From Dysidea avara (taxonomy: Eukaryota > Porifera > Demospongiae > Dictyoceratida > Dysideidae): a stretch of 64,000 nucleotides of DNA. Below, piece by piece: positions 4,330 through 63,731 of this stretch. The stretch covers positions 60,710,574-60,774,573 of the forward strand of contig NC_089272.1 in NCBI RefSeq assembly GCF_963678975.1. The letters run 5' to 3'. Both the position numbers and the translations under genes were made by a program. Each line of letters opens with the position of its first letter. Position 1 is the first letter of the stretch. The notes under the pieces were generated by a model. That model had not been told where the DNA came from, did not search any database, and saw only the letters and a program-made list of their open reading frames with translations.

Positions 4330-4563
4330 AAGACTGAGTAGCAACTGTACGAGACTTAGATTGCTCAAAATTATCTATCAGTTGCTATTGCTTATAGCTG
4401 ATAAGCTGGGGAACCTTTGAAACTGGTTGGCTTTGATTCTGATCACAGATTTTTGAATCCGCTCGTAGGAAACGCCTACTCTCCATCCCTAAATTCTAAC
4501 TTCTAATTGTGATTCTTGAGAACCACTGTAGGCTATTTAACCTCAAATTCAGCAGAGACTCTG

Positions 4564-5614
<1,051 letters not shown>

Positions 5615-11168: not shown

Positions 11169-11239
11169 CTGTAGGCTATCAATGAAAAAGTACATAATTA
11201 TTGTAATTCATATATTGGTCATAAGTAATCTTATACACA

Positions 11240-19764: not shown

Positions 19765-19880
19765 AGCCTGCCTACTTGTAGTACAAGGCTCGAGTAAAAC
19801 TTTCCAGTGAGAGTGCTCGGAACGTGCCAAATAAAATGGAAGATTAAAACGCGCTTCTTGAAATTTTAAAGGTATCTACA

Positions 19881-30366: not shown

Positions 30367-30449
30367 TTATAATAGAGTTATGATCGTCAGAAGTGCGATT
30401 AGTCCCAATAATGGAGAAGTGGTGGAGGCCTTTGATTCACTTGACACTT
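30367..30449 (-). CDS. GPI gene exon 8: GPI-anchor signal
   Basis: Encodes VSSESKASTTSPLLGLIALL and a few more hydrophobic residues to the stop (30,367-30,369). Small serine-type residues before a hydrophobic run of about 14 that ends the protein fit GPI transfer; a membrane receptor would continue with charged residues. The acceptor TTTGTACAG suits the phase-1 donor of exon 7 exactly. Confidence 0.8.
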
Positions 30450-31257
30450 CTGTACAAAACAATGCAAACACATGATTATTCACATGAATATAGTACGATA
30501 GGTTATATAGTTTGGTAAAGGATAATATTGTTTATCCACGTTCTAGTAATTTTCCATCATTCTACTGAAGTCTGTTGACACAGCACAGGCAGAAAACACC
30601 AACGCTTATTAATTGTGTATAGTACATTGGTAGATTCTATTATATGGTAATGCTCGTACTGTTATCTTTTGTGCAACATTCTACACACAGCTAGCGTCAG
30701 AAATCATTATGAATTACACTTTTATTTCAGATAAATTTCTGTACAGAATAAAATTCATACAAACCATTAAAGCTAGCTAGTAACACAAGTGTACAGATAG
30801 GCATGTTTCAAAGTGAGACTATAGGGTGGAGGAAGACCTCTACGTTATTCAGACAGTGTGTACTCAAATTGATTTTTAAGCTGCATAATATTACAATATT
30901 TAATTAAAATTTAATAGCACATGCTGTATTCTTTTGTTGCACGGTTTATATTTACATTCCTCGGTAGACTAAATTCAACAGCAGCAACTATAGGATGATA
31001 GAATCGCTACATAATCTGGTTGAAGGGTTTTGCATGGTTATGAGGAGATTAAATGGTGGGAACATTTGTGTCAAGTAAATGGTACCAATTGGCCTACCAA
31101 TCACCTCATAACTAATGAGTGGCTTTGTAAGGAGATAAGGAATACAGGAGAATAGATCACATACTGCATGAAGTGTGTTCTGTTCCTGTGGTTAGGATTA
31201 CAAAATCAATGGTACGTGCCTGACGTCTCAGATCAATTTGTGCACTGAAAATACGTA

Positions 31258-31353
<96 letters not shown>

Positions 31354-34300
31354 GTTGTCATATTACGGGTAAAGTGATTCATATTTGCTCCATGTATTGT
31401 ACTTTACAGTTTTACAGTGTAATGCTATACTCTCTCTCACACACACACACACACACATGCACACGCACACACACATACACGCACACGTGCACACACACAG
31501 ACACACACATGCACACACACATGCACGCACACACATACACAAGCACACACACACACACATACCACAGATCTTAACTTACCATGATGATACTCTGTTGACA
31601 ACTGAGGTGACGACAAGTTTTCTTTATTCATGGCAACAATGGTAATTTGATATCTGCCACCTACAATGTTACTGACTACTACCACACTGTTGCTACCAGG
31701 GACTGTCACTGATGTGTGATTTTGTGGTGAATTGTCATCACCCAATATTGAGTACGCAATCTGTAAAACAGGAGAGATTTTTAATAAGGGAATATTAACA
31801 TAGTCCAGCAAAGAATTGAAAATGTTTGGTGGAGAACTGATCATAAATCTGGGAAAATAGGCCTGCAGTGATGGATTGCTAAATAGTTATAGAGAGTTTC
31901 CATCTAACCAAATGAAACAAACCTTATCCACCATTACTTTTCCCAATGCGTATTATTGTGTATGCATACGATAGTTATAGCACTTACTGTAAATCTAGTA
32001 ATGTCTGCTCCACCAGTGGAATTCACATCCCATGTGATACGAATTGCATTTTCACTTATTTTTTCAGCAATTAAGGATGATAATGTGGGATCTAGTAGAA
32101 AAAAGTTTCCGTTAGTGTATGGGGCAACTTTATAGCATACAATATCATTCCATACATTTCGGCAAGCCTGTTTGCCAATCACCTATAAGTTAAATAATCT
32201 GATAACTGGCAGGTTCAAATAAGATTGCTAAAATTGTATGCTAAGAAAGGGGTTAAATTTGTAGCCATTTTTTTTTCTAAATAAAGCCTTTTACATTATA
32301 CAGTTCATACTATAACAGGCTTGTACATACACAATATAAACTTACATGTTGCTCTCGTTCTGACAGTAATGTTCTCAGCCAAATTTCCATCTCCCAGTTG
32401 GTTACTAGCTCTTACCGATACAGAATACATTGTGCCTGGATAAAGGCTGGTGGCATTAAATGATGTCAAGCTGGTAGGATAGAATTTTGTTGGTCTCATG
32501 TGCCGAGTGACTGCCACAGTGTAGGTAAGGATTGTATCAATACAACCTCCATTGTCCTCAGGTGGAGCCCAGCTGATGTATAGGTGCTTACTTCCTTCCT
32601 CTGTTTGGATGTTTTGAGGAACACCAGGAGTATCTAGTTTGAAGAAACATTATATATGTAGTCAAATCAACACATACAATAAGTGAGGTTTGCGTAGATT
32701 ATGTTATGAACATTTATAAAATTAATTGTTACTCACTTGCAAACTGTAGATAAGCTGTTGACATGGCATCTGGATTCACTCCATTGCTTGCCACACATGT
32801 AATATTTATTGAATCACTCTTAGTACCTCTAACAATAGTAACAGCATTATCAATCACTCCTTGTGATGCATCTCCACCACTTAATTGTAATGACACATCT
32901 GGTGTTGGAGTCCCTGCTACCCTAGACACTTCTGTACAGTTGTATGTTCCATTAGTTCCAACAAGAAAGCAAAGGTTTGGGATAGGGTCAACAAAAATTG
33001 GAGAGTCTGTTATAGGAGGTAAATATACACATAATACTTTATGATGATGACATTGTCCTTACATTTAACCATCAGACTGAAATGAAATTCTACGGTGCTG
33101 ATGTTATTAGAGATTGATAAGGTATAATTTCCAGACTGGCTCCTTCTGACATTGATGAGTTCTATTGATGTTGGGTCACTTGCAGTATTAGTTATGGTAA
33201 CACCATCTTGTTTTAGCACACTGGAATCAGGTGGAGGATTAGCAGTGACATCTACTGACAATGTAAAGTCCATCCCTTCTTCCATTGTGAATGCAGTATC
33301 CATTCCTTCAGCAATCTCTGGACCATCTACAGATACAGTAAAATACAGAGTGAATTTAAAATTCTCCAATACATCATAGTCAATATTAATGCTGTTGTTT
33401 TATATTTAAGCATACTGTATGGGAACTTACAAAATACAGTCACTTTTATAATTCCCATATCTTGCCCGGCAGTGCAAGTGATGGTAGTACCGTTGTCACC
33501 ACGGGTAGTTGCACGATATTGAAATAGCACTTCTTGTCCTCTACTGCCACTCAACCTTGTCACAATTCCAGTAGACACTTGATTATCATTTAGTGTTACA
33601 CTGATCATCTCCAGAGGATCAGCAGAAGGACCACAAGAGAAATTGAATGGATACCCTTCATTGACAAATATCAATTCTGGACTAAAAGGTAAAGCCAATA
33701 TTCCAGGATGGACTAAACAAACAAAAAATGAGAAACAATATAATTTAGTGTCACAGAATTTGATTATGTAAAGATACAGCTAATTAGTGAGTAGCAGCAC
33801 ATAAAACGTAAGGATTTTTACATTGTTAACATGTGCTATTAGATGCTACGTACTTCCACTGAATTGTGCATACACGATTACAAACTAGACCACACATATT
33901 CCAAAACAATTATGTCTTCCTCAATAGCAGTACTGTACTTTGGTATCCATTATGGTACACATGACCACATTCCAGTTTTGAATCTGGGAATCAATTGTAA
34001 TAATATTGGTGGTAGGGATGTATGTATTATACAATACAGTTATCAATTTATTTGCCCATACAATCTAATCATTTTTACTTTAGATGCCTTTGTGAACACA
34101 GGTCGTTGGTTAGAAATTTGAATCAAAAATAGTTTTGCAGTATTCCATACCAAGCAGCCATAGCCACTGTGCAAAATTCTAAAAGTAACCAGACAGGCGT
34201 TACATGCATACACAGCTACCTGAAGCAAGTGTACATGCATGGTGTTCATGTAACGTATGTATTATCCCAGATACCACTATTACTATTATTTTTTACTATG

Positions 34301-35585
34301 ATACACTTTTCATTAAAACACTTATACCCATCTTGCTACAAAGGGTACACCTATATATATCACCTTTAATGTATGATAAAACTGAACTATCAGCAGCATA
34401 CGTAGCTATGCAGTTAGGTTGCCACATTCATACGCATGCATATTGGTGCATTTATACTGAATACAATCTTGAAGATCTTATGAATTGCTAAATATTAGCT
34501 ACAGCACTTGGTTTGTACACACACAAGACTCTCTGGCTGGTCTTATACAGCTACCACTACTGTATAAAGCAAAGCTTACAAAAGACAGTTATTTCATATG
34601 TACATAGAAAGCTGGCTCACAATAGAACTATTTTGGATAAGTGGCACCTATTCTATGGAATGTTAAGAGTAAGCCTTACAGTTGACTAGCATGCTCTATG
34701 TCATAACCGGTACTATTTCATGTAAACCTATACCCCAGGATATCCATTCACTAAGCCTTTCAAAAAGACATTGTAGACAGCTCAAATGTCACAAGGTTAC
34801 AAAGCTTCTTATTCCTCCTGTGGTTTCCTATCAGACAATATCTGGTGTGAATAAAAAAACTTGACATTTGCATGAGATCTTATTACTGTCTGTCATCTAT
34901 CACACACTCAGGATACAGCTTCAATGGACAATGATTAATATTGTCATTGATGAGTAATTGAATTCAACCATGGAAACAAATATGGTTATGAATTCAGCAA
35001 GCATGATATGAATAGATTTTCCTGCTAATAACATATCTATAACTGATTCTAAAAGACAACCCATCATGGACGATATTGATTTTTATGGAGACTCATGGAA
35101 TAAATTTGTTAAAACAGATTTGGCAAGCAATTCATTCTCTAGGTACACTGAATCAATTATCATGGAATGATATACTTCAATCAGTACACCGCACTACCTG
35201 TTGAGTAAATTTAAAACTTTCTACAAGCTAATTGAAAGCCTTGGGATCAGTAAGCATTGAATAAAGATGAAAACCAGACTTCCACAGTAAAATAGTAGTT
35301 AGGAATAATGCTATTTCAACTGATAATTTCCCAACTCGGATCAATCTCCCCCCTTATGATAGAGAGTTCTTAGTTGGAAAAGAAAAGTAAACTAATCATT
35401 GTACTGTACCGTACATCCATGGCAAAAGATCGTTTGTACATGGATGAATAGTTATGAAAACCAGAGGCTTAGTATTTAAATTTTAATGACCACTTCACTA
35501 AAATGCATAAACATACAAGAAATTGTAATGGTTATGACTTACATGTTATTGTTATTAGAATGATCACAATTGAACTCCTCAACAT
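30367..35585 (-). CDS. GPI-anchored Ig/FN3 cell-surface protein (8 coding exons, 504 aa)
   Basis: Predicted adhesion or recognition protein of the outer cell surface, built like a small contactin/NCAM. Order: signal peptide (1-14), Ig1 (15-109), Ig2 (109-197), Ig3 (197-287), FN3-1 (287-383), FN3-2 (383-478), then a Ser/Thr-rich linker and hydrophobic C-terminus with no charged tail, the pattern of a GPI-attachment signal. Exons: 35,543-35,585; 33,431-33,712; 33,063-33,326; 32,737-33,006; 32,346-32,633; 31,988-32,091; 31,580-31,760; 30,367-30,449. All have GT/AG borders; the lengths total 1,515 bases with frame kept at each junction. All introns are phase 1 except the phase-0 one splitting FN3-2. 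A 5' UTR intron (about 35,596-37,371) is possible. It lies head to head with the transmembrane Ig/FN3 gene, and a decayed partial copy lies downstream. Ligand unknown; no one-to-one relative is claimed. Confidence 0.85.
31262..31353. repeat. (CT)n then (CA)n microsatellite
   Basis: About 80 bases of pure CT followed by a short CA run, in the last intron of the GPI gene. Confidence 0.95.
31436..31560. repeat. (CA)n microsatellite beside a splice donor
   Basis: Interrupted CA repeat of about 125 bases. On the transcribed strand it reads (TG)n and begins about 20 bases after the exon 7 donor (GTAAGT at 31,574-31,579). Long TG tracts at such a place can affect donor use. Confidence 0.9.
31580..31760 (-). 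CDS. GPI gene exon 7: second half of FN3-2
   Basis: Starts in phase 0 with IAYSILGDD and carries the later FN3 strands with GGRYQITIVAMN, the usual Y-x-I/V-x-V-x-A pattern. The donor is GTAAGT. One base is left over and completes a Glu codon with exon 8. Confidence 0.85.
31988..32091 (-). CDS. GPI gene exon 6: first half of FN3-2
   Basis: Encodes PTLSSLIAEKISENAIRITW and on to ITRFT, with the conserved FN3 tryptophan. It ends in phase 0, the only phase-0 junction in the gene; FN3 domains are often split in the middle this way. Confidence 0.85.
32346..32633 (-). CDS. GPI gene exon 5: FN3-1
   Basis: A whole FN3 domain in one phase 1-1 exon: TPGVPQNIQTEEGSKHLYIS, then WAPPEDNGG, and PGTMYSVSVRASNQLGDG near the end. 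The Pro-rich start, the Trp and the Y-x-V-x-V-x-A motif are all typical. Confidence 0.9.
32737..33006 (-). CDS. GPI gene exon 4: Ig3
   Basis: Ig-like domain, phase 1-1. Cysteines in GTYNCTEV and INITCVASNG could form the usual bridge, although the first sits early. It contains possible N-glycosylation sites (NGT, NCT, NIT). Confidence 0.75.
33063..33326 (-). CDS. GPI gene exon 3: Ig2 without disulfide cysteines
   Basis: Ig-like domain, phase 1-1: EEGMDFTLSVDVTANPPP...SQSGNYTLSISN. The two positions that normally hold the bridging cysteines read Val and Leu. Strand pattern and the Gly-x-Tyr signature remain. Confidence 0.8.
33431..33712 (-). CDS. GPI gene exon 2: Ig1
   Basis: Ig-like domain, phase 1-1: VNEGYPFNFSCGPSADPL...DNGTTITCTAGQD. 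The two cysteines (FSC and ITC) are spaced as in an Ig bridge. Confidence 0.85.
33713..35542 (-). other. First coding intron of the GPI gene
   Basis: An 1.8-kb intron with no further exon seen. The part around 34,110-34,370 is duplicated in decayed form at 29,330-29,540. Confidence 0.6.
35543..35585 (-). CDS. GPI gene exon 1: start codon and signal peptide
   Basis: ATG at 35,583-35,585 encodes MLRSSIVIILITIT, a short basic start followed by a hydrophobic core, then a GTAAGT donor leaving one base. This joins the phase-1 acceptor of exon 2 to give Phe. The exon is far too short to appear as a long open frame. The choice rests on position, phase and signal-peptide composition. Confidence 0.7.
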
Positions 35586-38200
35586 TTTGACAAATCTATT
35601 AAGAATATCATAAACAAGTCAACAATATGTTCTAACACATCTATGCATTGTATTTTAAAAAACTCATATAAGTATAATATAGATATCTGGGAAGGCTACG
35701 TATAAAGGTAACAACTTAATTGTGTGGATGCCAGCCACTATTACTGCCTATATGGTTTTACAATGAAGTACATGCAGTATAGTTGTTTAACAATTATATG
35801 ATGTACTCAAATGTCTGTAAAGATTCTCATACAATTATAGCTATAACTAGTGTGAATCATATGATATCTCGCTAATTTCACCAGGGCTATGAATTATTAT
35901 CTATCTGTTCTACTAAAGATAATCATTACTTTAGCTGAAACTGGGATGCACATAAGCCATATCAATGTACAAGAGAAGAACATACTGAAAAGAGAGGCCA
36001 TAATTGTAATAGGATGCAGAAACCACTTAACTTGTGTGTTCTCACATTCTCTTAGAGTGTTCAATGTTAGCTTTTATGAAACTATTTACTTGACCAAGCC
36101 TACATAAACTATTTGTAACCATTCCTCTCATATCTGTGTATAACTACCTGCTACACCCTACAAGTACAGTACTTTAATTACACAGCATTGCATTATGTCA
36201 TAGAACTGTAGCCACCAATATATTCATCACCTAATTGATTTAGGAAATAGAACTTTATGTCATTCATGACCACCTCTGATTATACTTATTATAGCTACTA
36301 CTGTATCCCATCATGCTGAGAGTTGAATATGTTTGTACAATACATAACATAAGATACAGCTTTAAATAGCACGCACAGAACACCTACATGCAACATCAAC
36401 TGAGTACAGATGCTAGCTACCTTCCAATAACGGCTTACTCATGTAGGAGGAATAGTATAGCATTTTACATGGTATTAACATGGTCATATCACTCAGGTAG
36501 TTGCCATGTACAACCGGTATAAGATGTCCTTAACTGAATGCATTTACACCAAATGGTGATACCATATAGAATTGCAACCTACAACAGAGGCCATATAAAG
36601 CTAACCAAACTATTAGTTTAATTTAGCTCATGATGAACAAACCTGTTGATAGATGCCTTATATGCACCAATATAACTATATGAGGCAAGTGGGTAACTTT
36701 CTTATGAACCACACTGTGACTAGCCTTCCTTACTAAAGGAAACATGAACAACATCGACAATGTTTTAGGAAATATAGCTATACTGTTGCTACGTAGCTGG
36801 CTATATACAGTAAAGTCAATTAGAAATGCTCGACAAGCTCAGATGTTCATTGCAACAAATTATACAACAGCATACACCAAGACTACCACCGTATATAGGC
36901 AGTAGCTACCTGAGCTACACAGCTAGTTTATGATGCTTTGGACATAGCTACAGTAGATTATCGATAATCTATGCTTTGGAGCTCTGTTTTCTTGGTGACG
37001 TCTTTGCCATAATAATCAAACCACTGCAGCTATGCATCATCCATGATCATATGCAGTGTAACAATGCTGCCATGGATACAGTTTTACGTACATGCTCTCA
37101 CCCCGCTACAATTTGACCATCTTCCAGACCGCAGTGTCCAGTGCATGGCGCTTTAGGGCGCGAAACAAGAAACTGAGCAGTGTTCGAGTTAACAAGCTAG
37201 TAAACCATGCACGGTGCAGTGATAGAGTGTACTAGTGAACAGCAATCGTTAAAGCGGCTAGCTGTTGCATCTGCTGGATCGCTACACTGAAGAACCGAGC
37301 ATGGCGAACGAGCGTGTCTCTCAGTACAACTAACTCAATAGCTAACCTCATACAATTACTGTAAAACTTACTTTGACTTGGATCGGTTTGCAAGTACAGT
37401 GAGTAACAGCTCCAAATTCACGATGTGCTAAGTAAAGTGTTTGCCGCAATAGAACAGTCTGACGTCATTTATAAACATTAACAAGCGCGTAATATAAAAT
37501 TAATTAGGCAAGGGCGTGACAAATTTTATTAAAGTAGCGGCGCCATATCAAAGCTAAAGATAAATAGAACAGCTTTCACCTCTTGATACAAATGAACACT
37601 CTATAGATGTTTCTTGGTATCTTTTCTCGGTCTATTTGGTTTAGAGTATCGGCTGCTGCCTTACATTAATAAGCGCCTTAATTTTTATTTATTTAAAAAT
37701 AGGTGGGGCAGTTACAATGGTATTTTGAAACTGATAAACACCACCCATTATTGTCCGAGCAGATAGGTGAGTTTTAAGTAAGTGCTACATGTGAACTTGT
37801 TTAAGCGCTTGTGTATTAAATTATATTTAATGTAGCGAACACATTGGAAAGCTATTTTGGTGTGAAACCTTAGTTGTGCGTTGAAGCCATGCACTGTAAA
37901 CTAATCCTTCCCACGTACAAAGCCTTATAGAGGCTTACTAAAGAACACGGGCTGCACATCTATAGCACGTGCTCTTCATTTCTTGCCTCTACAGCACATT
38001 TTAGAAAGTGTAAAATTATAATAATACGTCAGGATGATAGTCTGGAAGACTGAAACTACTGTGTACTACTGCTGCCACTGACTGTACAACCCTTATTCCA
38101 GCTAAATGGCTGTACATTACAGTGCACATGGCAATACATCATTTAACATGTTTATGAAGGTGCTAAGTGTGTATCATGAAATTACGTTCCCCACAGGAAG
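35586..38200. promoter_or_regulatory. Shared 5' region between the two divergent Ig/FN3 genes
   Basis: The two start codons point away from each other across 2.6 kb. The part at about 37,080-37,560 is less AT-rich and is the best place for a bidirectional promoter. Candidate untranslated exons can be seen: a minus-strand donor GTAAGT at 37,366-37,371 with an acceptor ending at 35,596, and a plus-strand donor GTGAGT at 37,767 with an acceptor CCCCACAG ending at 38,196. No TATA box is clear. Transcript starts cannot be fixed from sequence. Confidence 0.45.
37152..37165. promoter_or_regulatory. E2F-like site
   Basis: TTTAGGGCGCGAAA; its complement TTTCGCGCCCTAAA fits the E2F consensus TTTSSCGC. 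It lies in the supposed shared promoter. A single match, so only suggestive. Confidence 0.3.
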
Positions 38201-38264
38201 ATGTCCCGATTCATTTCACATCTTATGTTGTCAGTGCTACTGTTTGGCTATCACTTACTCACTG
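38201..38264 (+). CDS. TM receptor exon 1: signal peptide
   Basis: ATG at 38,201 begins MSRFISHLMLSVLLFGYHLL, a clear signal peptide, then a GTAAGA donor leaving one G. An acceptor-like CCCCACAG ends four bases before the ATG, so a 5' UTR intron is likely. Confidence 0.85.
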
Positions 38265-53200: not shown

Positions 53201-56200
53201 TTTAACTGAATTGTGCATTATATACGTATATGTTGGCATTGAACTGTTGGGAGAAAGCAATGGAAATAGCATTATACTTAGTAGCCCCTTTTTTTTCATG
53301 GTACAGAGCTTCCCACATTCTTTTAGTCTCTACAGAATATGTAGATCACTCTACAGTAGCTTCTTTGGATTTTAATAAAGTTACGTCTATTAAATGTTTG
53401 AGTGGCACCACTGGGCATCAAAGTGTTTTCTAATCAGAATTAATTTTCACAAGACATGAAATCATGTGTAAAAGCCATAACATCACCTGCAAAATAAACT
53501 ATTTTACAGCTAAGAATAGCTACGAATTAGGCCTACATTTGTATGTCCATAGTTCATGAGTTGTACAAAACATACATAGTCTATATGGTATGAATGTAAA
53601 AGTATATTATGTACGTAGATGACTTTATGATAGACTATAATAAAACAAAAGAAGTAATGTATAATATGTACATATTTGTAGTTCAACCAACAATAAATCT
53701 TGAGGTGACAGAATACAGTCATGTCATTGACGAAATTGCAACACTTCCATGCCCCACCAGCAGTGATCCTCCTGCCTCATACTGGTGGAGTGTGGGAACC
53801 AATAGGATACCGCTACATGCTGACAACAAATATCAAATGGATAATGTCACTGGTACACTTAACATTGCTCAGCTGGAAATAGGGGACAGTGATGTCTACT
53901 ACTGCACAGCTACCAACTATGTTGGTGATGACACTGCTAGTACCATGTTGATTGTGGAAGGTAATTTATGAATTTGATAAGAGAAGCACATAAATTTGTT
54001 TATGAGAAGTCATTGTTGCTTATATACGATTTAGCTGAATACTGGCAGTATATTCCAGATATCAGGTGTTATGGCTGCTCTTGCAAGTGTCTAATAACTG
54101 GAGGATCTAGGACTGAAACTTCTTTATATTAATTGTCCTAGCCTCCCCACAAGTCAATAGTCTGATGGTACCTATAATGATACCTACAGTGGAACCTTTG
54201 GCTTTCAATCTGACCTTACTTGAATGTTTTATTAGAGTAGTGAATGTTCTGTTTGAGTAGTCAAAATTTTCATTTAAATATTAAACTTTTGTTTTTTGTG
54301 TTAAATATGTACCTTGATTTCAGAGTAATGGACTTTTCAGTTATCTGAACACTATGTGGTCCCCAGGGGTTTGGATAACTACTGAGATTCAACCTTACTT
54401 CTTTAAACAGGCTGTAGGACCAGATGTCTTATAGACACCTTAAGCATTTCACTTGTGTTGTAAAGCCTCAGTAAATAATAATAAAAACTACAGTGGAACC
54501 TCAGTTATCCGGACCCCACTTATCCGGATTTTCGGTTAACCGAACCATGGAAATAACTGCTCTATTAGAGTAGTGACTGTTCTATTATTACAGTAGTTAA
54601 AAATATTGATATTTTAAAATTTTTCTTCATGCTATTTTAAGGTTATTTATACACAGTTTCAGAGTTACGGACTTTTCAGACTTATGGACCACCCCTGGTC
54701 CCAAGGGGTTCGAATAACTGAGGTTCCACTGACACCAATGAATAGATGTTAATTGTTAATAATAGACCCACCAGAAAAGGAGAATCTTTCAGATTTTGTT
54801 ATACCATTATTGCAATTAGGTGGTATAAATGGTATAAGGTTCACTCAGGATTTTAATAGGATGTAAGTGACGAATGAATTGCTGCATATTTTCTGTCATG
54901 CTGCAACTGGTCTAGTCATAATTGGATCCCTGGACTTTTTTTATTGTTACAGCTGATGGCTAGGACTGGGTGGTATTGAAATTTAGTGTCATGGAAAATG
55001 TCATGATATCACTAAATGTGTGCAATTCAATTAAATGTAGCTGAGTAATGCTTGACGTTTTTTCATTGGAGTGTTTGAATGCTCTATTAGAGTATCTCAA
55101 TCTTCACAATTTCAAGTGACATATCTACAACCCTGCTGTTCAATGGCATCGTGTAATATGGTCCGTTCTAGACTAGAACAACATCACATAACATTCTAAA
55201 GCAAAAAGAGCTACTGTAGCATTCTGTTAATCTTTAGTGTTTAATACGTATGTGCAGTACCACGGTACTTGTAATATTAACCACAATAAAAATGTTTCAC
55301 CTAATGTGTGAAAACGTTCAATGAATTACTTTGGGTACTAAGACTGATGAATGAATAGTAGACCACCAGTCACAACTAACTGTAGCACTTCAAATATGAT
55401 TAAGATTTATAATTTTGGATTCACACAGGATTTGGCAACTTTAAGCAGGGAACCATATACAACATGGCAGCCCATAATCAATTGAAAATAATTTCTATGA
55501 AAAGTCTAAACTCTGCTTATCTTTACACCAAAGCTATTTCCATAAAATTCGGCTGATTCTGCTAGCATTAGCTAATAGCATGGAGGAAATCTCATGCAAG
55601 CATTAGTAACAATACAAATGATATTTGAAGCTATCTTTCAGTTTCCTGACATTCATAATTTAACAGTACACCTGGAAGCCAAACACAGCAACAAGAATTC
55701 TATTCCAAATGTGTAAACATGGCTATTGTGTATCGTGTTATTCATCCAGGGCCTCCACCAGAAAACATAACTGTCAACACATCAGACTCAACATCATTGT
55801 TAGTAGAATGGACTGAACCATCATCTACCATTAACTTAGTATTGTACCAGATCATAGTCACAGAAGAGAGGTCACTTAGTAACACTACCACACTTAATCA
55901 TACCACGCTGAATAGCAGGTAAATAATGGTACACCATAATACTGTAAATAAACACAGTCATAATGCAATGTCTATATATCACTCTGTGTATTTTACATCC
56001 GTTGATGTATGTCACATATATAATATTTCCATACCATTACTGTTCAGTAAACAGAAATTTAATCTGCGTCTACTTTGCCAGAATGGTTATGGGAATAATA
56101 CATAGGTTGTGGAAACAAATAGATATTGTATGAATTATTGGATAATTGAATACATTATACGTAGGAATATTGAGGTCAATGAAAAGCCATGCTAATTCTT

Positions 56201-59200
56201 TCATAGTTGACACAAAATTTGAGAATTGAACAACTTTATTTCTAGAAATTATCAGAACATATGCAGTAAATACGTACACACAGCCTTAAACATGTCATAC
56301 AGTACAATAGTAATGTATAACAGGGATCACAGAAGTTTGCACCTTTCGCAAAAAAAATAATATTGATCAGAAACCACCCTCACAACACCTTCATGGCAGA
56401 ATTGGTTAGGTAACCAAGCCAAAGATGCCTTTAGTATGAGGTTGCTGCAAGATTTTTTTAAAAATCAATCAAGTGGAATTTTCTACTTACTGACTGACTG
56501 GCCGACCGACTGACAGACCGACCTACCAACCGACCAACTGCCTGAGAGACTGACTGATGCCTTAACTTGATAACGCTATATGCTACAGTTGTTGATTTAT
56601 TGACATTGCTTCAACCCGACAGGTGCTGTTTGGCATATGCAGTAATACAATGCATACTTCATGGACTTACTTTTGTGTCCCATTGATCTTGACAGTGCAA
56701 GGTGTCAGTTAGTGGCAGTGCAGCATAATGGCTTCCCTACATTTGTAAAGGGAACCGTCTGAGTGTTAGATTGTGACTAGATTGATTGCAGAGGTCCTTC
56801 TTCATTTGTAATGCTGTGCAACAGGCTAAACATAGCTAGAAATGAAGTGTAACACATTCAGATGAAAACAATAGGCCATTCTTCCTTTTATTATGCGGTA
56901 TACAAAGATTCACCAGTCATACAAATGTTAATTAAGTAAAGAAACAAATATAAAAATTTCAAGTTCGCTAAGGAACAAAGAAATAAAAAGCAGTGAAATA
57001 AGAGACACATGAAGATATACTTGTGGACTTGTTAATATTTAGTCATGGGTATAGACTGAAGTAGGGATTAAATGTACTCTAGTATATATATATATATATC
57101 TTCAGGTGTAGGTGGCCTCCCTTAATTTTCTCACTACTTTGCAATTCTCTGATCCCTTATTCTTGTTTTTATACTGTAGGTCAATGAGATTGCCAGGGTT
57201 GAACGAGTTCACAGAATACAGGATCATAGTGAGAGGAGTGTATAGAATCACATCTGATAGTGATGTATTCTCCTTTGGCCTCAATACAACTATTACTGCT
57301 ACTACTGCTGAAGCCTGTGAGTTGTTATTGACATTAGGGAACCTCAGTGATCTTTAACTCTTGGAAACTACCTGAGTTTATTAACAACATAATGTGTTGC
57401 CTTATATCATTAAAATACTCTAATAAGGCAATCATCATTCAACAAGTAATATGGTAACTGGGGTTTCATTGGGGTGTTATTAATCACTGGATTAAACTGA
57501 ACTACTGAACTGTCATATTTTTGGTTTTTACCCATGATATGGTTGATAATATGGTAGGATGACATGCTAAGTAAATGCCTTCAGAGAACATTTAGACCAC
57601 TACTGAAATGCTAAGTGCAAGCAGTGGAAGGAGCAATAACCATTTTCTAAGGATTTCACTACTACTCTAAAATACATATACACTATGTACTTACCCTTGT
57701 ATATACATAGTAGGCATGACTGTAATCATAACATGTGTAAAAACCAACTATAATAACTGTATAGTGCAAAGTTTAAACAGGGGGATAATTTTATTGCATT
57801 GTAATTTTTCTTCTTAAAAGTTTGCTTTTCTTGCATTCTCATATACAATATTGAAACATTTCATCAAAATTCTACTTGTTGAAATGCTCGATCATCCAAT
57901 TCATCAAAATTTTCTCTTGTCAAATATTCGCTCTATACAGTATGTCAATCCAGTAGTCCAGTCTGTTGCTCCATGCCAGTGATTACTAACCTATTTTACT
58001 GTACCTGTAGTACTTCTGTCATGTATATATGAAGTACGTAATGTGTGAGGGGTCACCAACTGCTTCGAAATCTCGTACACCTTCAGTAAAATCCTGCCTG
58101 AAATACGAAATCTTATGTTGTTATCGTGATTCTGATTCTATACTCGTTCTGGTACCGTAGCTTACACTCAACTGCTCCTGCACAAAAGTAAGAATGAAAT
58201 CCGATGTTCCGCTCTGCTTCGGATTTGTATAATCAAGTTGTGGAAGCCACACAAAACCAGGAGCTGTGGAAAGAAGCCGCACAAAACCAGGAGAGAATGA
58301 AATCCGATGTTCCGCTCCGATTCGGATTTATATTAAGGGAATTGTGGAAGCCAAACAAAACCAGGAGTTATGGGAAAGAAGCCACACAAACCAGGAGAGA
58401 ATCCATGCAAACTGTTCAAAAGTAAAAATAAAAGCCGATGTTCCGCTCCGTTTCGGATTTATATTAAGCGAGTTGTGGAAGCCAAACAAAACCAGGAGCT
58501 GTGGGAAAGAAGCCAGGGAATCCATGCAAACTGCTCCTGCACAAAAGTGAGAATGAAATCCAATGTTCCGCTCCGCTTCGGATTTACTTAACAAACTACA
58601 AACTTAGCAACACAAACTTAGCAAAACTTCATAAACTTAGTAACATACCAACTACAAAAGCAACTTAAGCATACACTGAGATGCTCCTGGTTTTGTGGGG
58701 TTTCACACCAGATAGAGCTTTGACAGTTGCTCCTGGTTTTGAGGGGTTTTCGTACAGGATTTCACCTGAATGATTGGTCTTGTTTCCTGGTTTATAGGGC
58801 TTCAGCTGCGAGTTGCTCCTGGTTTTGTAGGGTTTCATTTAATAGTTATGCCTAGGCTTTACTCCTGGTTTTATATGACTTCGCAATTCCTCTCAATTTC
58901 GTGAGGCTTTGCTCTTACATGCCTGCTGAACTTCTGTTTCTTTCTCCCACTATTTTTTGGTGATTTCAGAACTTATCACTCTACACTTTAAAATCAGATT
59001 TTGCAGCTCTCGTTGATTTTGTGAAATCTTTTGAAATCCGTGAAATCTTGAGAAATTTGTTCAATATTTTGAAATTCGTGCCGCTTTTTCATGAGTTGGT
59101 GACCCCTCGGTAATGTGTGACCTAATTTGGAAGAAAAAAACATTGATCTATGCACAGCAATAGATTGTGAGATATGCAATTTTAAATATTTCAATGTTGG

Positions 59201-62200
59201 GAAGGTCAAAAGGTACGAGTTTGAAATTTTCACCATGAATGCAGCCAACCATAATGTTTATTAAGAAGCTTGCTATTGATATAATTATATGATTTTGAGC
59301 ACCTTTTTTCACAACAGTATCTGTAACACAAGCACGTCACCATGAGTGGTGGTGGGGATGGTGGGTGAGTGATTGATATATGAACAGAAAATGCATGGTG
59401 CCTCCAGCCTTAATATATATTGGGCTCTCAAGACCAGCGTTGAAACCGGGTCGGGTCATCCGGGTCAACCGGGTCACATTTTCTCCGGGTCATCCGGGTC
59501 TGACCCGGTTTACAAATTATCCGGGTCTGACCCGGATTGGATCACGTGAGAAACTAAATTGATCGTTTAACGACGTGGAACCTATAAACGCTAGTCGCGT
59601 AGCTCTTTCGTGAGCCACGCCCACTTATCGCGTTACAAACATACGCTCAGCCACGCCCATTTATTAGTAAGTGCAGTCTGTAGCATGTAACTGTGTCCGT
59701 TGCTGTGTGCAAGCTTATGTGGAGCCACGCCCACTAATCGATTATTGTATGAGTTGTATATAGTCTAGGTCTAGTCTTGCAGCAGGATAAGTACTTTGTG
59801 AGCCACACCCATTTTATTATATTGGGAAAATGCAATACTAAGTATGTACGAAGCCACACCCAATTGCTGTCTGTAAACTCACAGTAACTACGTGGAACCA
59901 AACCCACTGACTGATTTTAAATTATAAACTTACCGGCGTAATTATCACATAACTACTCGTTTACTCAACATGAATCGAACGCTAAAAACGTAGTCTCGCT
60001 CGCTCAAGAATACCCGAAACATACCTCTTATCGCGCGCCTCTGCTTAATTTAATCCGGGTCACATCCGGGTCAAATCCGGGTCAAATCCGGGTCTGACCC
60101 GGATTGCTATCCGGGTCTGACCCGGATTGCTATCCGGGTCAGTGGGTCATCCGGGTCAGCAGTAGTGACCCGGTTTCAACGCTGCTCAAGACCACCTGTG
60201 CCACTAAAAATATGTAGAAAATATCTGGGCAACTGTCCAAGGCTCTAGTCTCGTATTTCAGCTGGCCAGAGGCATTACAAGGTGCCAGAGTGTTCCAGTG
60301 GCTGGCACACGTCTCTGGAAATCTACTCATGAAAAGCAGCCTGATCAAATCAGAGGCATGGCTGTGGTACAAATATGTAGAGCATTGGTGTGGCTATTCA
60401 TTCATGGTGAAAGTGAATTTCACTGGTGTGTGTGCAGATCAATGATTATCAAAAATTTGGCCACATATAGATATGTAATAATCATGTTACACATTAAACT
60501 TTGTCATATGTTTTATTCAGTGCCGACTGGTATCCCTCAGAACATTAGGACGGACAGTGATGTGGAGAAAGTGGACATCAGATTTGAGGTGGGTAACCAA
60601 GAGAGTATGGCATTAAATTTTCATTGCTTGCTGCCATGCAATTGAATCTAACATGGGGAATAATATTTTTCTAAGTGTATAATAATGTAACTGACAAATT
60701 GCTTAAACAGTGTTCTATTAAAAACATTTGCTAGCTAGGCTATGGGAATTTTGTTTTGTATATAGTCTCCATTGTTCCTCATTATTGTACTGTACTGTGT
60801 GCATCTTACATATGTGTAAATATATTTTGGTACTGTATCAGGCTCCCTCAGAAGATGATCGTAATGGGATCATACTAGGCTACAACATATACTACAGGCC
60901 CAGTCCACCTGGCAACTTCACTAATGCTTCAGCTGGTGTCTATCTTCAAAATGGTTCTAACATCACAGTGGCAAACTACAGTTTAGCAGTGTACAGACCA
61001 AGAAACATTAATGTGACTACAGAGCTGTATACATTACGTGGACTTGATGATGACACCTCCTATGATTTCTTTATGGAGGCATTTAACTCAGTTGGTGTGG
61101 GACCCAACACCACTCTCTACACTGTAACAACTGACAAAGGTGAATAATATGTATTTAAAGCTGCTATATATGTACAATAATTAACTAAAATAAAACATAT
61201 GGTTGGAAAGAGGGAGGCCATGGTGCTGAAGTCCCCTTGAGTAGCTGAGATCTAGCACCTCTCCAAAATTTGATAAAATGTGGCTGGAATTCTATTTCAA
61301 GAATATGAGCTTAAACACTGTTAATAGGATGATTTAACACTCTAATAAAACAATTATAGCATTTTATAAGAATTAACAAAATGAAAAATCTATTTCTGTA
61401 AGTCAGGATTGAAGGGGCTTTGTTCCCTGACTTTCTGCTCCCACCCTGGTCAGTCTTCTCATGCCAACAACTTCTTCCAACCTTATATTAATAATATGAT
61501 TATATAATTTGTGGCAAGTATACAAAATAACATAATTGTTGCTTAATGATTAGGAACAAGCCACACAGTATTCTCATGACCAGTGCCTAATGCATAGATG
61601 CAAACGAGCATACATGCACAAAGCATTAATAACATCATCATTCATAGAATACTATTTCTACCTATAGCCTTTCCAACAACTCTTGTGGTTGTCATCTCTT
61701 CAACTGTTGGAGGTCTCATCATCATAACACTAGTAGTGTTGTTGATTGTATTCTGCTGCTTTTACTGTAGAAGAAAAAAGAAGACATCTGAAGGTATAGC
61801 ATCATGTTGCATATTTGTGCATACTTAGCACAGCAGAGAATCATTTACCCAGACATCAATTAGCGAAACGTCAATACAAAAAAAAAAGATTGATTCAGCA
61901 TTTTGTATGGTCTATTAGAGTAGTGTGTATATAAAATTTTAGAGACAGGGTATTTGATTTTACATGCTTATATTTATATTACAAACATTCTTCCTCCATT
62001 CAGAAAATCAATGTTTCTACTTTACTATGTATCTTATACTAAATAAATCAATTAGCATGTAATTATTCTGTGTAATGATACTTTTGGCAAATATTTATTT
62101 GATCTGATTTGGTGTTGTATGTACAGCATATAGTAAAGATATAATTATATGTGACCAAAACAAGGCTTCCACACACATCCGATTTTCTGACTTTAACCAG

Positions 62201-63731
62201 CTGTAACGTGACTACTCAGCAACCTATAGGTCTAAAAATTTCACAAGGTCTATCCATAGCATAGTACAATACCAGGTCAAACTTTGAAACTAATGGCATA
62301 CTCCTACATTCAGTTATGGTACTTCAAAGTCATAAAAGTGGATGTGTGTGGAAGCCTTGTTTTGTCAAATTCGGTCACATATTCAGTTTGTTATCATACA
62401 CCATAGCCAAAGCCAATAAAAGAACTGCCAGAAATGTCAAGAAGTTGATGTAAGTCTATAACACCACTGTTGATATATGTTATGCACAAACATATATTAT
62501 CTATGCTATTATAGAGATGCCACAATTATGCCAGCATAATTTTTGGGATACTGTATTTACTTGGTTAAATGCTGCACCTTCAATAAATAGTAGCTGCACT
62601 TGAGTGGTGCAATGATTAATTATGAATATAAGGGCTTCAACAATATTTTTGAGCATCAAAATTAATGGTTGCCAAATTCAAATAGTTGTTGCATTGATTT
62701 TTAGATCTAGGGTAATAAATACCTCAGTGTTTAATACGGTAATAGAATTATACTGGTATTTTGAAGCAAGTATAAAGTTTAAAAGGTAAGAAAATCTGTA
62801 ATTTGCACAATTTCAATTTCATTTAAAAGATATGTATACTCTAATAGAGCAGTCAAATTCTAATAGAACAATAACACAATCCAATTTAGCAGTCACATAA
62901 ATCAATTATGAAATGAAATACTCTAGTATATAGCAGAAAATTATTAATTTTGAAGCTGAAATATATCAATGTAAATGGTCTTATACAGCTATAAACTGAC
63001 AGTATTGGCTAAAAATGGAGGCATAATTTATTGTGAGAATAAGGGGCAATCCTCATAAACACAATAGGTGATTTTTTGAACACTGCTTAAAAGCATAATG
63101 CATCTTTTTGAGCACAATAGCTGGTATATTATACTGCAAGTAAATGTATCCATGTGCATGATAGGTACAGTGTTATCTGTTACTAGATGTATATATGCTT
63201 TGTTTTGTTTGTAGCATCAGTGAGCCAGCTACTGATATTCCACCCGACACTGTCACCTCTGGAAAGTTCAGTGCAGAGAACATAGATGGTGAGGTGATTC
63301 CCCTCAACCCTAAAGTGATCAAACCTGAAGATCGTGCCCCTACTCCTGAACCTGGAGAAACTGCTGTTCCTGTGAAGCACATCTCCTTCAGTGATGATGA
63401 ACAAGCCCCACGGCCTTCGTCAGGTCTTTACAGTGAACCAGCTGATAGTGTAAGAAGGTACCAAAGTCAAAGTGGAAAGACGACAGAAGATGAAATTGTT
63501 GATGAAGCATTTAAGGAGATTACAAATACAGACACTGAACCATTGTATGCTTCTGTGCCAGAGAGTCACAAACAGGAAAAGAGAGTCAAGAAGAAAAACA
63601 AAAACAACAAGAAAGGCAAGAAAATTGTATCTGTCACAAGTAATACTACCCTTGAGGGTTTAGACACATCTACTAAGGAAGGACAAGAGCTCCATCGAAT
63701 GTTAGATGCTGCTTCTGCTGGAATGTTTTAA
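38201..63731 (+). CDS. Transmembrane receptor with nine Ig and two FN3 domains (18 coding exons, 1,304 aa)
   Basis: Predicted single-pass cell-surface adhesion or recognition receptor. Order by residue: signal peptide (1-21), Ig1-Ig7 (22-670, one exon each), Ig8 (670-760, two exons), Ig9 (760-853), FN3-1 (853-955), FN3-2 (955-1077), membrane helix (about 1082-1108), cytoplasmic tail (1111-1304). Exons: 38,201-38,264; 38,585-38,881; 39,880-40,146; 40,350-40,646; 40,711-40,968; 44,563-44,823; 45,186-45,467; 48,848-49,129; 50,914-51,055; 52,827-52,954; 53,682-53,960; 55,750-55,918; 57,180-57,316; 60,521-60,588; 60,842-61,139; 61,668-61,793; 62,407-62,449; 63,215-63,731. All have GT/AG borders, phases agree at every junction, and the total is 3,915 bases with a single stop. 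Layout recalls NCAM, Dscam and protogenin types, but no orthologue is claimed. An additional exon in a large intron cannot be fully excluded. Confidence 0.85.
38585..38881 (+). CDS. TM receptor exon 2: Ig1
   Basis: Phase 1-1 exon: SVTLTCSMPDDPPANITWYI, later DNGAYHCVAIYND. Both cysteines, the Trp and the D-x-G-x-Y-x-C motif are present. Confidence 0.93.
38882..39879 (+). other. Intron 2 of the TM receptor
   Basis: About 1 kb; no exon or repeat element recognised. An antisense frame at 39,628-39,885 is not protein-like. Confidence 0.6.
39880..40146 (+). CDS. TM receptor exon 3: Ig2
   Basis: Phase 1-1: VGEVATFHCDVYSNPAPTDV then SWRRN, and EEDDGSYTCEVTNLYG. Typical I-set Ig domain. Confidence 0.93.
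40350..40646 (+). CDS. TM receptor exon 4: Ig3
   Basis: Phase 1-1: IEGNSFTITCTVDGGIPSTL, then NWYRDG, and ETDRGIYTCVAG. Typical Ig domain with several N-x-S/T sites. Confidence 0.93.
40711..40968 (+). CDS. TM receptor exon 5: Ig4 (no internal ATG)
   Basis: Phase 1-1: LPRFTTHPGNITTPNDKTYT, then CNATGNPQPSEISWRSPEG, and ASVGLHSCVALNGVGES. Cysteines and Trp are in place. The exon has no ATG, so ORF-based methods overlook it. It is separated from exon 4 by a 64-base intron and its borders keep frame. Confidence 0.88.
41640..42780. mobile_element. Repeat family A, reversed copy followed by a foldback
   Basis: 41,640-42,290 is a reversed family A body (CTGACTAACTAACTGG, then a sequence parallel to 56,500-56,850). 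It is followed by an inverted pair: left arm about 42,292-42,502, right arm about 42,567-42,780, both with TGTGGACATGTAATCCCTAA or TGTCCACAAGTATAT-type sequence and ending near GGTGAACCCACACATAC. The 64-codon frame at 41,806-42,000 is inside the repeat. Confidence 0.65.
43500..44060 (+). mobile_element. Repeat family A copy with (CAGT)n end
   Basis: Shares CCTTCTGCAATCACCATGG-like and GTATGCAAAAAGGCACCGGT sequence, plus a short CAGTCAGT block (43,990-44,020), with the copy at 17,600-18,080. The 92-codon frame at 43,545-43,823 is repeat-internal. Confidence 0.6.
44563..44823 (+). CDS. TM receptor exon 6: Ig5
   Basis: Phase 1-1: GNDVIIPCVVEGSPDPTVQW and SNEGMYNCIASNTHG. Typical I-set Ig domain. 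Confidence 0.93.
45186..45467 (+). CDS. TM receptor exon 7: Ig6
   Basis: Phase 1-1: GSTVTLDCCFNSTLPVNVTW and DDSGPYICTGV. It has two adjacent cysteines (CC) in strand B. The donor is GTGAGT at 45,468; an upstream AGG/AAG border would not give a GT. Confidence 0.92.
45510..45849. mobile_element. Probable hAT-like MITE
   Basis: Ends TAGAGCTATGCAATAATTA and, inverted, TAGGGCTGTGCAATAATAA, with repeated TTATCGTGATAA motifs between. Ends of the form YAGGGCTGTGCAA are common in hAT elements. No exact target duplication was found. Confidence 0.5.
45943..46271. mobile_element. Foldback element, copy 2
   Basis: Left arm 45,943-46,085, right arm 46,113-46,271, the same sequence family as 595-924, with a different loop of about 27 bases. 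Again followed by the GTAGCTGAACTCTCTACA satellite. Confidence 0.85.
46461..47932. repeat. Tandem satellite, GTAGCTGAACTCTCTACA type, array 2
   Basis: About 1.5 kb of the same 30-45-base units as at 1121-1935, here more diverged and with many GTGACTTGTTT spacers. Higher-order order is not as clear as in array 1. Confidence 0.9.
47933..48715. repeat. Right part of the composite repeat, with terminal hairpins
   Basis: Begins with the dispersed CTATTAGAGTATCTCAATC motif and continues into sequence of more even base composition. Near the right edge are two small hairpins: CGTGCCGG...CCGCACG (about 48,665-48,690) and GACACAC...GTGTGTC (about 48,690-48,707). TCATGGT occurs on both sides of them. 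Adjacent hairpins at one end recall Helitron-like or satellite-carrying elements, but no CTRR end is evident. The 98-codon frame at 48,274-48,570 is not treated as a gene. Confidence 0.4.
48848..49129 (+). CDS. TM receptor exon 8: Ig7
   Basis: Phase 1-1: GGDVTLTCSATGVPAPQIMW and GDTGVYHCVADNQVD. Typical I-set Ig domain. Confidence 0.93.
49130..50913 (+). other. Intron 8 of the TM receptor
   Basis: 1.8 kb. It contains a 22-base unit (GTAGCCCAGGTTATATTTAG type) repeated about 2.5 times at 49,905-49,955, a 24-base perfect inverted repeat (50,371-50,434), and AGCATAATGG-type repeat sequence at 50,270-50,690. No exon seen. Confidence 0.6.
50371..50434. repeat. Perfect 24-bp inverted repeat
   Basis: GCTAAAACTCTGCCTACTTT plus GCAT and its exact complement, separated by 16 bases. 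A third partial copy follows at once. Confidence 0.9.
50914..51055 (+). CDS. TM receptor exon 9: first half of Ig8
   Basis: Phase 1 start, phase 2 end: AGRDHILNCNLIYDFPTPLI, then TWSRSDGSSISVG. Strand B Cys and the Trp are here; no internal ATG. Confidence 0.88.
51056..52826 (+). other. Intron 9 of the TM receptor
   Basis: 1.8 kb splitting Ig8. It includes reversed GCATAATAGG-type repeat sequence (about 51,120-51,540) and two copies of the dispersed CTATTAGAG motif (51,308 and 51,385). The 127-codon frame at 51,345-51,728 lies in this material and has no domain. Confidence 0.6.
52827..52954 (+). CDS. TM receptor exon 10: second half of Ig8
   Basis: Phase 2 start completes Arg with exon 9: MSALRNGSLLISPVIVNDSM, then TFTCRASNTFGGSS. 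It supplies the strand F cysteine. The usual Y before x-C reads Phe. Confidence 0.88.
53682..53960 (+). CDS. TM receptor exon 11: Ig9
   Basis: Phase 1-1: VIDEIATLPCPTSSDPPASY, then WWSVGTN, and GDSDVYYCTATNYVG. Typical Ig domain. Confidence 0.93.
54187..54392. mobile_element. Degenerate pogo/Tigger-like MITE
   Basis: Starts CAGTGGAACCTTTGGCTTTC and ends in a worn inverted copy (GGATAACTACTGAGATTCAA). Interior parallels the better kept element at 54,491-54,731. Confidence 0.55.
54405..54490 (+). repeat. LINE/SINE 3'-tail fragment
   Basis: GGCTGTAGGACCAGATGTCT...CAGTAAATAATAATAAAAAC; same family as the tails at 17,505-17,590 and 63,965-64,000 (both reversed). Confidence 0.6.
54491..54731. mobile_element. 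Pogo/Tigger-like MITE
   Basis: Ends CAGTGGAACCTCAGTTATCC and GAATAACTGAGGTTCCACTG are inverted copies of the CAGT-GG-ACCTC type known from Tc1/mariner-pogo (Tigger) elements. 241 bases, no coding capacity. Carries a CTCTATTAGAGTAGTGACTG motif. Confidence 0.75.
55750..55918 (+). CDS. TM receptor exon 12: first half of FN3-1
   Basis: Phase 1 start, phase 2 end: PPPENITVNTSDSTSLLVEW, then TEPSSTINLVLYQIIV. Proline-rich start and the FN3 Trp are present. Confidence 0.9.
55919..57179 (+). other. Intron 12 of the TM receptor
   Basis: 1.3 kb. Most of its right part (56,440-57,130) is a reversed repeat family A copy with a diverged CTGACTGACTGGCCGACCGA block. No exon seen. Confidence 0.6.
57180..57316 (+). 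CDS. TM receptor exon 13: second half of FN3-1
   Basis: Phase 2 start, phase 1 end: MRLPGLNEFTEYRIIVRGVY, then RITSDSDVFSFGLNTTITA. It has the L-x-E/P-x-T-x-Y-x-I-x-V pattern of FN3 strand F. Confidence 0.9.
58047..59109. mobile_element. Mutator-like element with tandem repeats and 9-bp flanking repeat
   Basis: Inverted ends GAGGGGTCACCAACT and AGTTGGTGACCCCTC, flanked by GTAATGTGT on both sides (58,038-58,046 and 59,110-59,118), the size of a Mutator target duplication. One extra G at the right end breaks exact symmetry. The left half (58,168-58,590) is about four tandem units of some 120-125 bases, each with GATGTTCCGCTCC and AAACAAAACCAGGAG. The right half has several inverted CTCCTGGTTTTGTGGGGTTT motifs. 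The overlapping frames of 73-94 codons here follow the repeat period and are not genes. Confidence 0.65.
59435..60184. mobile_element. hAT-like element built of CCGGGTC palindromes, perfect 8-bp target duplication
   Basis: Ends CAGCGTTGAAACCGGGTC and GACCCGGTTTCAACGCTG are exact inverted copies of 18 bases. CTCAAGAC flanks both sides (59,427-59,434 and 60,185-60,192). Next to both ends are many units such as ATCCGGGTCTGACCCGGATT, themselves palindromic. The centre repeats GAGCCACGCCCA-type sequence. No coding capacity. The 60-codon frame at 59,380-59,562 crosses the left end. Confidence 0.88.
60521..60588 (+). CDS. TM receptor exon 14: start of FN3-2
   Basis: Phase 1 start, phase 0 end: PTGIPQNIRTDSDVEKVDIR, then FE. 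The donor GTGGGT gives a clean join to the next exon (FE then APSEDDRNG). An alternative donor four bases on (GTAACC) would break frame. Confidence 0.82.
60842..61139 (+). CDS. TM receptor exon 15: rest of FN3-2
   Basis: Phase 0 start, phase 1 end: APSEDDRNGIILGYNIYYRP...LDDDTSYDFFMEAFNSVGVG. Typical FN3 B-C to G strands. The conserved Trp just before this exon is Phe (IRFEAP). Confidence 0.9.
61140..61667 (+). other. Intron 15 of the TM receptor
   Basis: 528 bases; nothing recognised. Confidence 0.6.
61668..61793 (+). CDS. TM receptor exon 16: transmembrane helix
   Basis: Phase 1-1: LVVVISSTVGGLIIITLVVL then LIVFCCFYC, an uncharged stretch of about 28 residues ended by RRKKK, which sets the inside. 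Several cysteines at the inner edge could be palmitoylated. Confidence 0.92.
61794..62406 (+). other. Intron 16 of the TM receptor
   Basis: 613 bases, including the MITE at 62,148-62,382, which ends only about 25 bases before the next exon. Confidence 0.6.
62148..62382. mobile_element. MITE, ATATGTGACC ends
   Basis: Inverted ends: ATATGTGACC then AAAACAAGGCTTCCACACAC on the left, and the complement of the same on the right with nine extra bases after GTGACC. It shares ATATGTGACC with the element at 24,937-25,195. Confidence 0.75.
62407..62449 (+). CDS. TM receptor exon 17: basic membrane-near micro-exon
   Basis: 43 bases, phase 1 start and phase 2 end, encoding KANKRTARNVKKL. Without it the phase-1 end of exon 16 cannot join the phase-2 start of exon 18, so frame requires such an exon. 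CATAG acceptor and GTAAGT donor. Very basic, just inside the membrane. Confidence 0.75.
62450..63214 (+). other. Intron 17 of the TM receptor
   Basis: 765 bases. It holds GCATAATTTTTGGGA and AGCATAATGC repeat sequence like that at 50,270-50,690, and reversed CTAATAGAGCAGTC motifs near 62,840. No exon seen. Confidence 0.6.
63215..63731 (+). CDS. TM receptor exon 18: cytoplasmic tail and stop
   Basis: Encodes the final 171 residues. In order: an acidic, proline-rich part (KPEDRAPTPEPGE), GLYSEPADS and EPLYASVPES (tyrosine motifs of Y-x-E-P and Y-x-x-V form), a lysine-rich block (RVKKKNKNNKKGKK), and a C-terminus ending LDAASAGMF. It has no enzyme domain; signalling would need recruited partners. 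The stop TAA is at 63,729-63,731. Confidence 0.9.

Follow-up and report, generated by a model that had tools for sequence, protein, structure and literature searches.

The closest known counterparts of the locus reported here are gene pairs in which two IgSF genes lie side by side. NPHS1 and NEPH3 are described as head-to-head IgSF genes with a bidirectional promoter and methylation-dependent co-regulation (PMC6448927). Nephrin and the NEPH proteins (IRM) comprise a long class with 8-9 Ig domains and one FN3 domain, and a short class with five Ig domains; the adjacent Drosophila genes rst and kirre run in opposite directions and there is evidence that they are co-regulated, and the expression of these paralogues is reported to be compensatory, not parallel (PMC3152562). 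GPI-anchored IgSF proteins, for their part, are reported to signal via transmembrane partners in cis, e.g. contactins with L1-family proteins or CASPR (PMC5715320).

The present locus, from the sponge Dysidea avara, lies in a 550.8-Mb genome of 108 contigs and was analysed within a window of 64,000 nucleotides (C1:60710574-60774573, to which all positions without a contig name refer), in which spliced Ig/FN3 genes, kinases and retroelements are present. Sponges sort cells and distinguish self from non-self, and to our knowledge few sponge IgSF receptors have a proposed partner. Going by titles and the opening lines of abstracts, none of the papers listed on sponge Ig allorecognition, sponge genomes and GPI, Dysidea immunoglobulin and sponge bidirectional promoters describes a pair of the kind presented below.

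Structure and arrangement of the two genes

Two genes stand head to head, on opposite strands and with adjacent 5' ends, which is the order of a bidirectional gene pair; their ATGs, at 35585 (-) and 38201 (+), lie at a distance of 2,616 bp (Table 1). The initial annotation had described such a pair with 2.6 kb between the genes, and both this arrangement and its gene ends agree with the models obtained here (stops at 30367 and 63731). Set from frame, splice-site scores and phase, these models are unbroken frames of 8 and 18 exons in which all introns are GT-AG and all exon phases match. The spliced translations of 504 aa (-) and 1304 aa (+) have no internal stops, carry 12 and 33 N-glycosylation sequons, and begin with N-termini that resemble signal peptides when read by eye rather than by a predictor. 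An examination of protein-coding content between the ATGs revealed neither a long ORF nor an Ig/FN3 exon.

Table 1. Positions of the divergent gene pair, its exons and the elements between the two genes, within the 64-kb window.
Feature	Position	Strand	Basis or remark
Decayed tandem remnant of GPI-type gene (Ig2, Ig3, FN1, intron-1 pieces)	28445..29527	-	stops
GPI-type gene, 8 exons, 504 aa	30367..35585	-	closed phases; Pfam Ig_3, I-set, fn3
Exon 8, GPI-type attachment signal	30367..30449	-	stop at 30367
Exon 7, FN3 2 second part	31580..31760	-	Pfam fn3
Exon 6, FN3 2 first part	31988..32091	-	phase-0 intron; Pfam fn3
Exon 5, FN3 1	32346..32633	-	Pfam fn3
Exon 4, Ig-like 3	32737..33006	-	3 Cys, without Trp; PDB matches span Ig2-Ig3
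Exon 3, Ig-like 2	33063..33326	-	without Cys; Pfam Ig_3/I-set
Exon 2, Ig-like 1	33431..33712	-	Cys pair, without Trp; no Pfam call
Exon 1, ATG and signal peptide	35543..35585	-	ATG 10 nt past acceptor-like AG
Intergenic region between ATGs, 2,615 bp	35586..38200	.	no second genome copy found
CpG-retaining peak, candidate bidirectional promoter	37027..37926	.	o/e 1.04-1.06
Possible 5'UTR donor, GPI-type gene (AAA/GTAAGT)	37372	-	last exon base, score 5.4
TGACGTCATTTATAAACAT, holds the window's only TGACGTCA	37460..37478	.	adjoins TATAAA in both directions
Possible 5'UTR donor, transmembrane gene (TAG/GTGAGT)	37766	+	last exon base, score 7.6
Transmembrane gene, 18 exons, 1304 aa	38201..63731	+	closed phases; Pfam
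Exon 1, ATG and signal peptide	38201..38264	+	ATG 4 nt past acceptor-like AG
Nine Ig domains, 10 exons	38585..53960	+	Pfam, Cys-Trp-Cys
Ig exons 1-5	38585-38881, 39880-40146, 40350-40646, 40711-40968, 44563-44823	+	
Ig exons 6-7 and 10	45186-45467, 48848-49129, 53682-53960	+	
Two-exon Ig domain	50914-51055 with 52827-52954	+	
Two FN3 domains, 4 exons (55750-55918, 57180-57316, 60521-60588, 60842-61139)	55750..61139	+	Pfam
Transmembrane exon	61668..61793	+	hydropathy
43-bp basic juxtamembrane exon, bridges phase 1 to 2	62407..62449	+	exon scan; least certain exon
Cytoplasmic tail exon	63215..63731	+	stop at 63731

In the product of the minus-strand gene, the signal peptide is followed by three Ig-like domains, each encoded by one exon, then by a pair of FN3 domains and lastly by a GPI-type C-terminus. 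Pfam marks one Ig_3 and two fn3 stretches in the protein, with the Ig matches confined to Ig2; Ig1 was assigned from exon size, phase and Cys spacing. The core Trp is found in none of the three Ig-like domains, and two of the three have at least two Cys, Ig2 having none. Judged by these residues and by the single Pfam call, the Ig domains are degenerate. The diverged set (32737-33712, -) nevertheless keeps an intact reading frame. Titin and receptor phosphatase F are the best PDB sequence matches, over the FN3 part, and titin and neurofascin chains match across Ig2-Ig3 too; single-sequence structure prediction for Ig1 and Ig3 (mean pLDDT 37 each) is uninformative. At the C-terminus (..SSESKASTTSPLLGLIALLTIITLL-stop), a hydrophobic run of 15 residues comes after SSESKASTTS and reaches the very end of the protein, where a basic tail is absent; we take this ending to be a typical GPI signal. 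Read from the sequence, the protein is a candidate GPI-anchored IgSF CAM, with a signal peptide, Ig-like domains and a C-terminal signal without cytosolic residues, although Pfam calls one of the three Ig domains.

The plus-strand gene encodes a signal peptide, nine Ig domains, two FN3 domains, a transmembrane segment and a tail of ~190 aa. Pfam calls nine Ig_3 and two fn3 stretches, and Cys-Trp-Cys is kept in nine of nine Ig domains; the strongest hydrophobic segment of 19 residues, with a mean hydropathy of 3.1, begins at residue 1090, and the 43-bp juxtamembrane exon has the top score among the four listed single-exon candidates. Among the best 60 of 118 PDB matches of the ectodomain, DSCAM comes first (E 9.5e-49), followed by titin, ROBO2 and Contactin-2; the presence of titin so near the top shows that these matches are of a generic I-set kind. 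A scan of the introns for single phase-1 exons of at least 60 bp found no convincing additional Ig/FN3 exon. Dscam-like alternative exons were rejected because the Ig profile, which reports intact exons, found no spare Ig exons inside the gene. One intron of the gene contains a satellite-like array of ~31-bp units (GCTGAACTCTCTACAGGGTGA..; 46513-47870); another such array lies at 1128-1930, and relatives occur past the window, at 97.5-98.8 and 109.0-109.6 kb on the scale of the window.

The initial annotation had given the two products the same two domain types, opposite anchoring modes and, for the longer one, a signalling-type tail. Opposite anchoring is real by sequence, with a GPI-type C-terminus on one protein and a transmembrane segment on the other. 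Pfam does call FN3 and Ig in both proteins, with the qualification that the Ig domains of the minus-strand product are degenerate. The description of the tail needs a qualification as well: YSEP and YASV contain two of its three Tyr, and a pattern search found no ITIM, no ITAM and no PDZ-binding end. Identity as an ITIM/ITAM receptor was rejected, as YSEP and YASV are the only such sites and neither matches the pattern.

Copies, remnants and relatives

Whole-genome protein searches found each gene once, with one decayed remnant apiece, and no second haplotype copy of either gene. The remnant of the GPI-type gene lies just 3' of that gene and is a DNA-level duplicate, because intron-1 sequence is present in it; a 680-aa reverse-transcriptase ORF (RVT_1; 25999-28041, +) adjoins it. 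The remnant of the transmembrane gene (C1:60820721-60823124) lies 46-49 kb 3' of the window end and consists of the first half of FN3 and part of the tail exon, the longer pieces being 70-82% identical with internal deletions. The other genome matches of both proteins show 26-39% identity (for the plus-strand query, 36 of 1,365 candidates were scored). Outside the locus, the nearest relative of the minus-strand protein is encoded at C1:50.451-50.456 Mb, by a gene with four Ig exons, several FN3 and a transmembrane segment, the last recognized by eye; no Ig exon was found in the ~5 kb read upstream of it. In the viral_contigs collection there were pattern matches and no confirmed relative of the minus-strand protein, and in the genome_contigs collection no confirmed relative of the plus-strand ectodomain (649 residues queried).

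The best BLASTP alignment between the two proteins has an E of 0.001 (29% over 65 aa), and the transmembrane gene is absent from the genome matches of the minus-strand protein at E 0.01, the nearest of which, beyond its own remnant, is the gene at C1:50.45 Mb. By sequence comparison the two proteins are not closely related to each other; they may have a common origin, which would be old. An old inverted duplication, by which one Ig/FN3 gene was copied head to head and its copies diverged in length and anchor while their adhesion roles still overlap, would explain the like domain order (Ig then FN3), the predominance of phase-1 exons in both genes and the PQNIxT start common to mFN1 of the minus-strand protein and pFN2 of the plus-strand protein (36% over 47 aa, E 0.015); the decayed duplicates of both genes nearby also imply that duplication has been active here. 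Such an origin is nonetheless unlikely in view of the low similarity between the proteins, the FN3 introns, whose positions by eye differ from one gene to the other, and the fact that, outside the locus, the minus-strand gene has its nearest relative elsewhere.

A profile built from the 12 Ig exons was run over the 303 kb around the pair, where it detected no further intact Ig exon. This profile recovered the four Ig exons of the gene at C1:50.45 Mb, which was outside its training set, and failed to detect the eroded Ig remnant of the GPI-type gene at 28.7-29.0 kb, which tblastn does show, so that its result applies to intact exons. An FN3 profile matched the two genes and the remnant of the transmembrane gene (another row, with E 1.1e+04, is a meaningless second alignment). 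Since neither profile finds other intact exons nearby, the pair is isolated and lies outside any Ig cluster.

This isolation bears on the self/non-self recognition unit raised in the initial annotation, i.e. a polymorphic ligand and its receptor kept as linked genes. The architecture alone speaks for such a unit here, together with the precedent of Hydractinia, in which linked Ig allorecognition genes are reported as a 41-gene family (PMC11999971). Each gene of the sponge pair was found once with a decayed remnant, however, and the searches described above detected no Ig cluster, no spare Ig exons and no second haplotype copy. As a weaker point, the main text of a sponge graft transcriptome study contains no mention of immunoglobulin, Ig domain or fibronectin (PMC5450542). 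Nothing measured supports self/non-self recognition, and we consider it very improbable for this pair.

The intergenic region and its candidate promoter

A search of the 551-Mb genome that omits very common words found no second copy of the 2,615-bp stretch that separates the ATGs. CpG o/e is 0.35 for the window as against 1.04-1.06 at the intergenic peak; no other CpG peak reaches the cut-off used in the region 20.3-59.1 kb. A CpG peak alone is weak evidence, because of 602 placements of a 2.6-kb stretch over the 303 kb 103 contain one, as do 24 of 124 placements within the window (17-19%), counts in which placements overlap and the true intergenic one is included. The window also holds three kinase-domain genes or pieces, at 4513-5611 (+), 10087-11175 (-) and 18838-19875 (-), the last with a very similar copy ~30 kb upstream (C1:60699-60703 kb, by eye); a CpG peak covers the 5' end of two of the three (3827-4626 and 19427-20326), and 10087-11175 is without one. 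Inside the intergenic peak, the CRE-like TGACGTCA at 37460 occurs once in 64 kb, as a motif picked after the region had been inspected.

The two possible donors listed in Table 1 face outward and stand 394 bp apart. Donors scoring at least 4 comprise that at 37766 and one at 37777 (5.4) on the plus strand from 36900 to 38196, and that at 37372 alone on the minus strand from 38190 to 35600; the chance rate at a score of at least 5 is ~0.4 per kb and strand, or ~1 per strand in 2.6 kb. Acceptor-like AGs, which were not scored, precede both ATGs (by 4 nt on the plus strand and 10 nt on the minus strand), and because of the AG before exon 1 of the GPI-type gene a 5'UTR exon upstream of it is possible. 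Together, the outward donors and the acceptor-like AGs hint that the first exons are non-coding and that the start sites are no more than a few hundred bases apart. Bidirectional pairs have been defined as those whose transcription starts at sites up to 1 kb apart; 11,379 genes of Amphimedon (45%) are reported to have head-to-head start sites within that distance, and CpG increases at the start sites of this sponge (PMC4773876). These data support the promoter reading, yet they make the arrangement less remarkable. One bidirectional promoter would fit the CpG peak, the donors and the AGs without being proven by them, and the peak could be due to chance. The common 5' region of the initial annotation thus gains support from these elements, while its use by both genes, and with it a single promoter and co-expression of the pair, is something that we infer.

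The two genes could also be chance neighbours, i.e. unrelated members of an IgSF-rich genome with their own promoters and separate functions. Ig/FN3 exons are very numerous, with 2,884 I-set and 1,285 fn3 candidates at first look; head-to-head order is common in sponges, going by the Amphimedon figures (PMC4773876); the two proteins show no close relationship; and CpG peaks are frequent, with 37 in the 303 kb. Against this, no intact Ig gene besides these two turned up in those 303 kb, and one CpG peak sits between the two genes. Consecutive Ig/FN3 pairs within 60 kb were, moreover, on the same strand in 175 cases, divergent in two (38 and 50 kb) and convergent in one, as counted from the best 150 of 152 I-set rows and 150 fn3 rows, a list that lacks the minus-strand gene of the pair, leans to recent arrays, gives no 5' distances and would miss pairs like the present one. 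Chance neighbourhood is a serious possibility, if a minority one. Large Ig/FN3 arrays lie at C5:38.5-41.5 Mb, C1:18.9-19.05 Mb, C7:0.78-0.87 Mb and C4:29-31.3 Mb; C5 holds 85 of the 150 I-set rows, in long same-strand blocks with a strand switch near 39.55-39.58 Mb.

The reading that we favour, with our confidence evenly divided between its being right and wrong, is that of two single-copy IgSF genes transcribed outward from one promoter, with co-expressed products of adhesion type. One CpG-retaining promoter near 37.0-37.9 kb would drive both genes, and each transcript would start with a non-coding first exon. The plus-strand product, with its nine Ig and two FN3 domains and two Tyr motifs in the tail, would be a long adhesion receptor of the type-I transmembrane kind, and the minus-strand product, with three degenerate Ig and two FN3 domains, a short GPI-type surface protein. 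With a common promoter, both proteins would be displayed by the same cells; the GPI-type one would then most likely partner the receptor in cis, or else serve as an adhesion molecule in its own right that is co-expressed with it.

Putative partnership and comparison with known systems

A cis partnership of the contactin-L1 type is a fair idea by analogy, and physical contact between these two particular proteins is speculative. A bolder proposal, which we hold to be improbable, is a cis-encoded recognition module in which one promoter yields both the GPI-type protein and a transmembrane receptor that binds it on the same cell. Such a module would be a sponge counterpart of contactin-L1 and nephrin-NEPH, wired as a divergent gene pair, and might serve to sort cells as they reaggregate. 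If the pair is co-expressed and its products interact, an early-branching animal would offer a receptor and its partner that are encoded by just two genes and open to direct tests, and divergent IgSF pairs with a common promoter, described in mammals and flies, would be shown to arise in sponges too; if not, the locus is an ordinary neighbourhood within an IgSF-rich genome.

Among known systems, the Alr complex of Hydractinia likewise consists of linked Ig surface genes and is reported to be a 41-gene family in one complex (PMC11999971), in contrast to the isolated sponge pair. The cluster of an allorecognition complex is lacking here, as the profile detected no other intact Ig exon in the 303 kb and the GPI-type gene is accompanied by a decayed remnant only. 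The ectodomains of DSCAM, ROBO and contactin are the best PDB sequence matches of the plus-strand ectodomain and differ from it in domain counts. DSCAM has 10 Ig and 6 FN3 domains in a fixed order, as against 9 Ig and 2 FN3 in the sponge protein. Contactins, with 6 Ig and 4 FN3 domains, resemble the minus-strand protein, a predicted GPI-anchored Ig/FN3 protein, in anchor and domain types and differ from it in that it has 3 degenerate Ig and 2 FN3 domains; its partnership is putative. The rst-kirre pair is like the sponge pair in arrangement, but the sponge proteins are dissimilar and differently anchored, whereas the products of roughest and kirre are both transmembrane. The products of NPHS1 and NEPH3 are both transmembrane as well; no nephrin/NEPH chain occurs among the best 60 of 118 PDB matches of the plus-strand protein, and the domain counts of that family differ from those of the sponge pair (9 Ig with 2 FN3, and 3 Ig-like with 2 FN3 and a GPI-type end). 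In arrangement, NPHS1 (nephrin) and NEPH3 (KIRREL2) of mammals are like the sponge pair: divergent IgSF genes, one long and one short.
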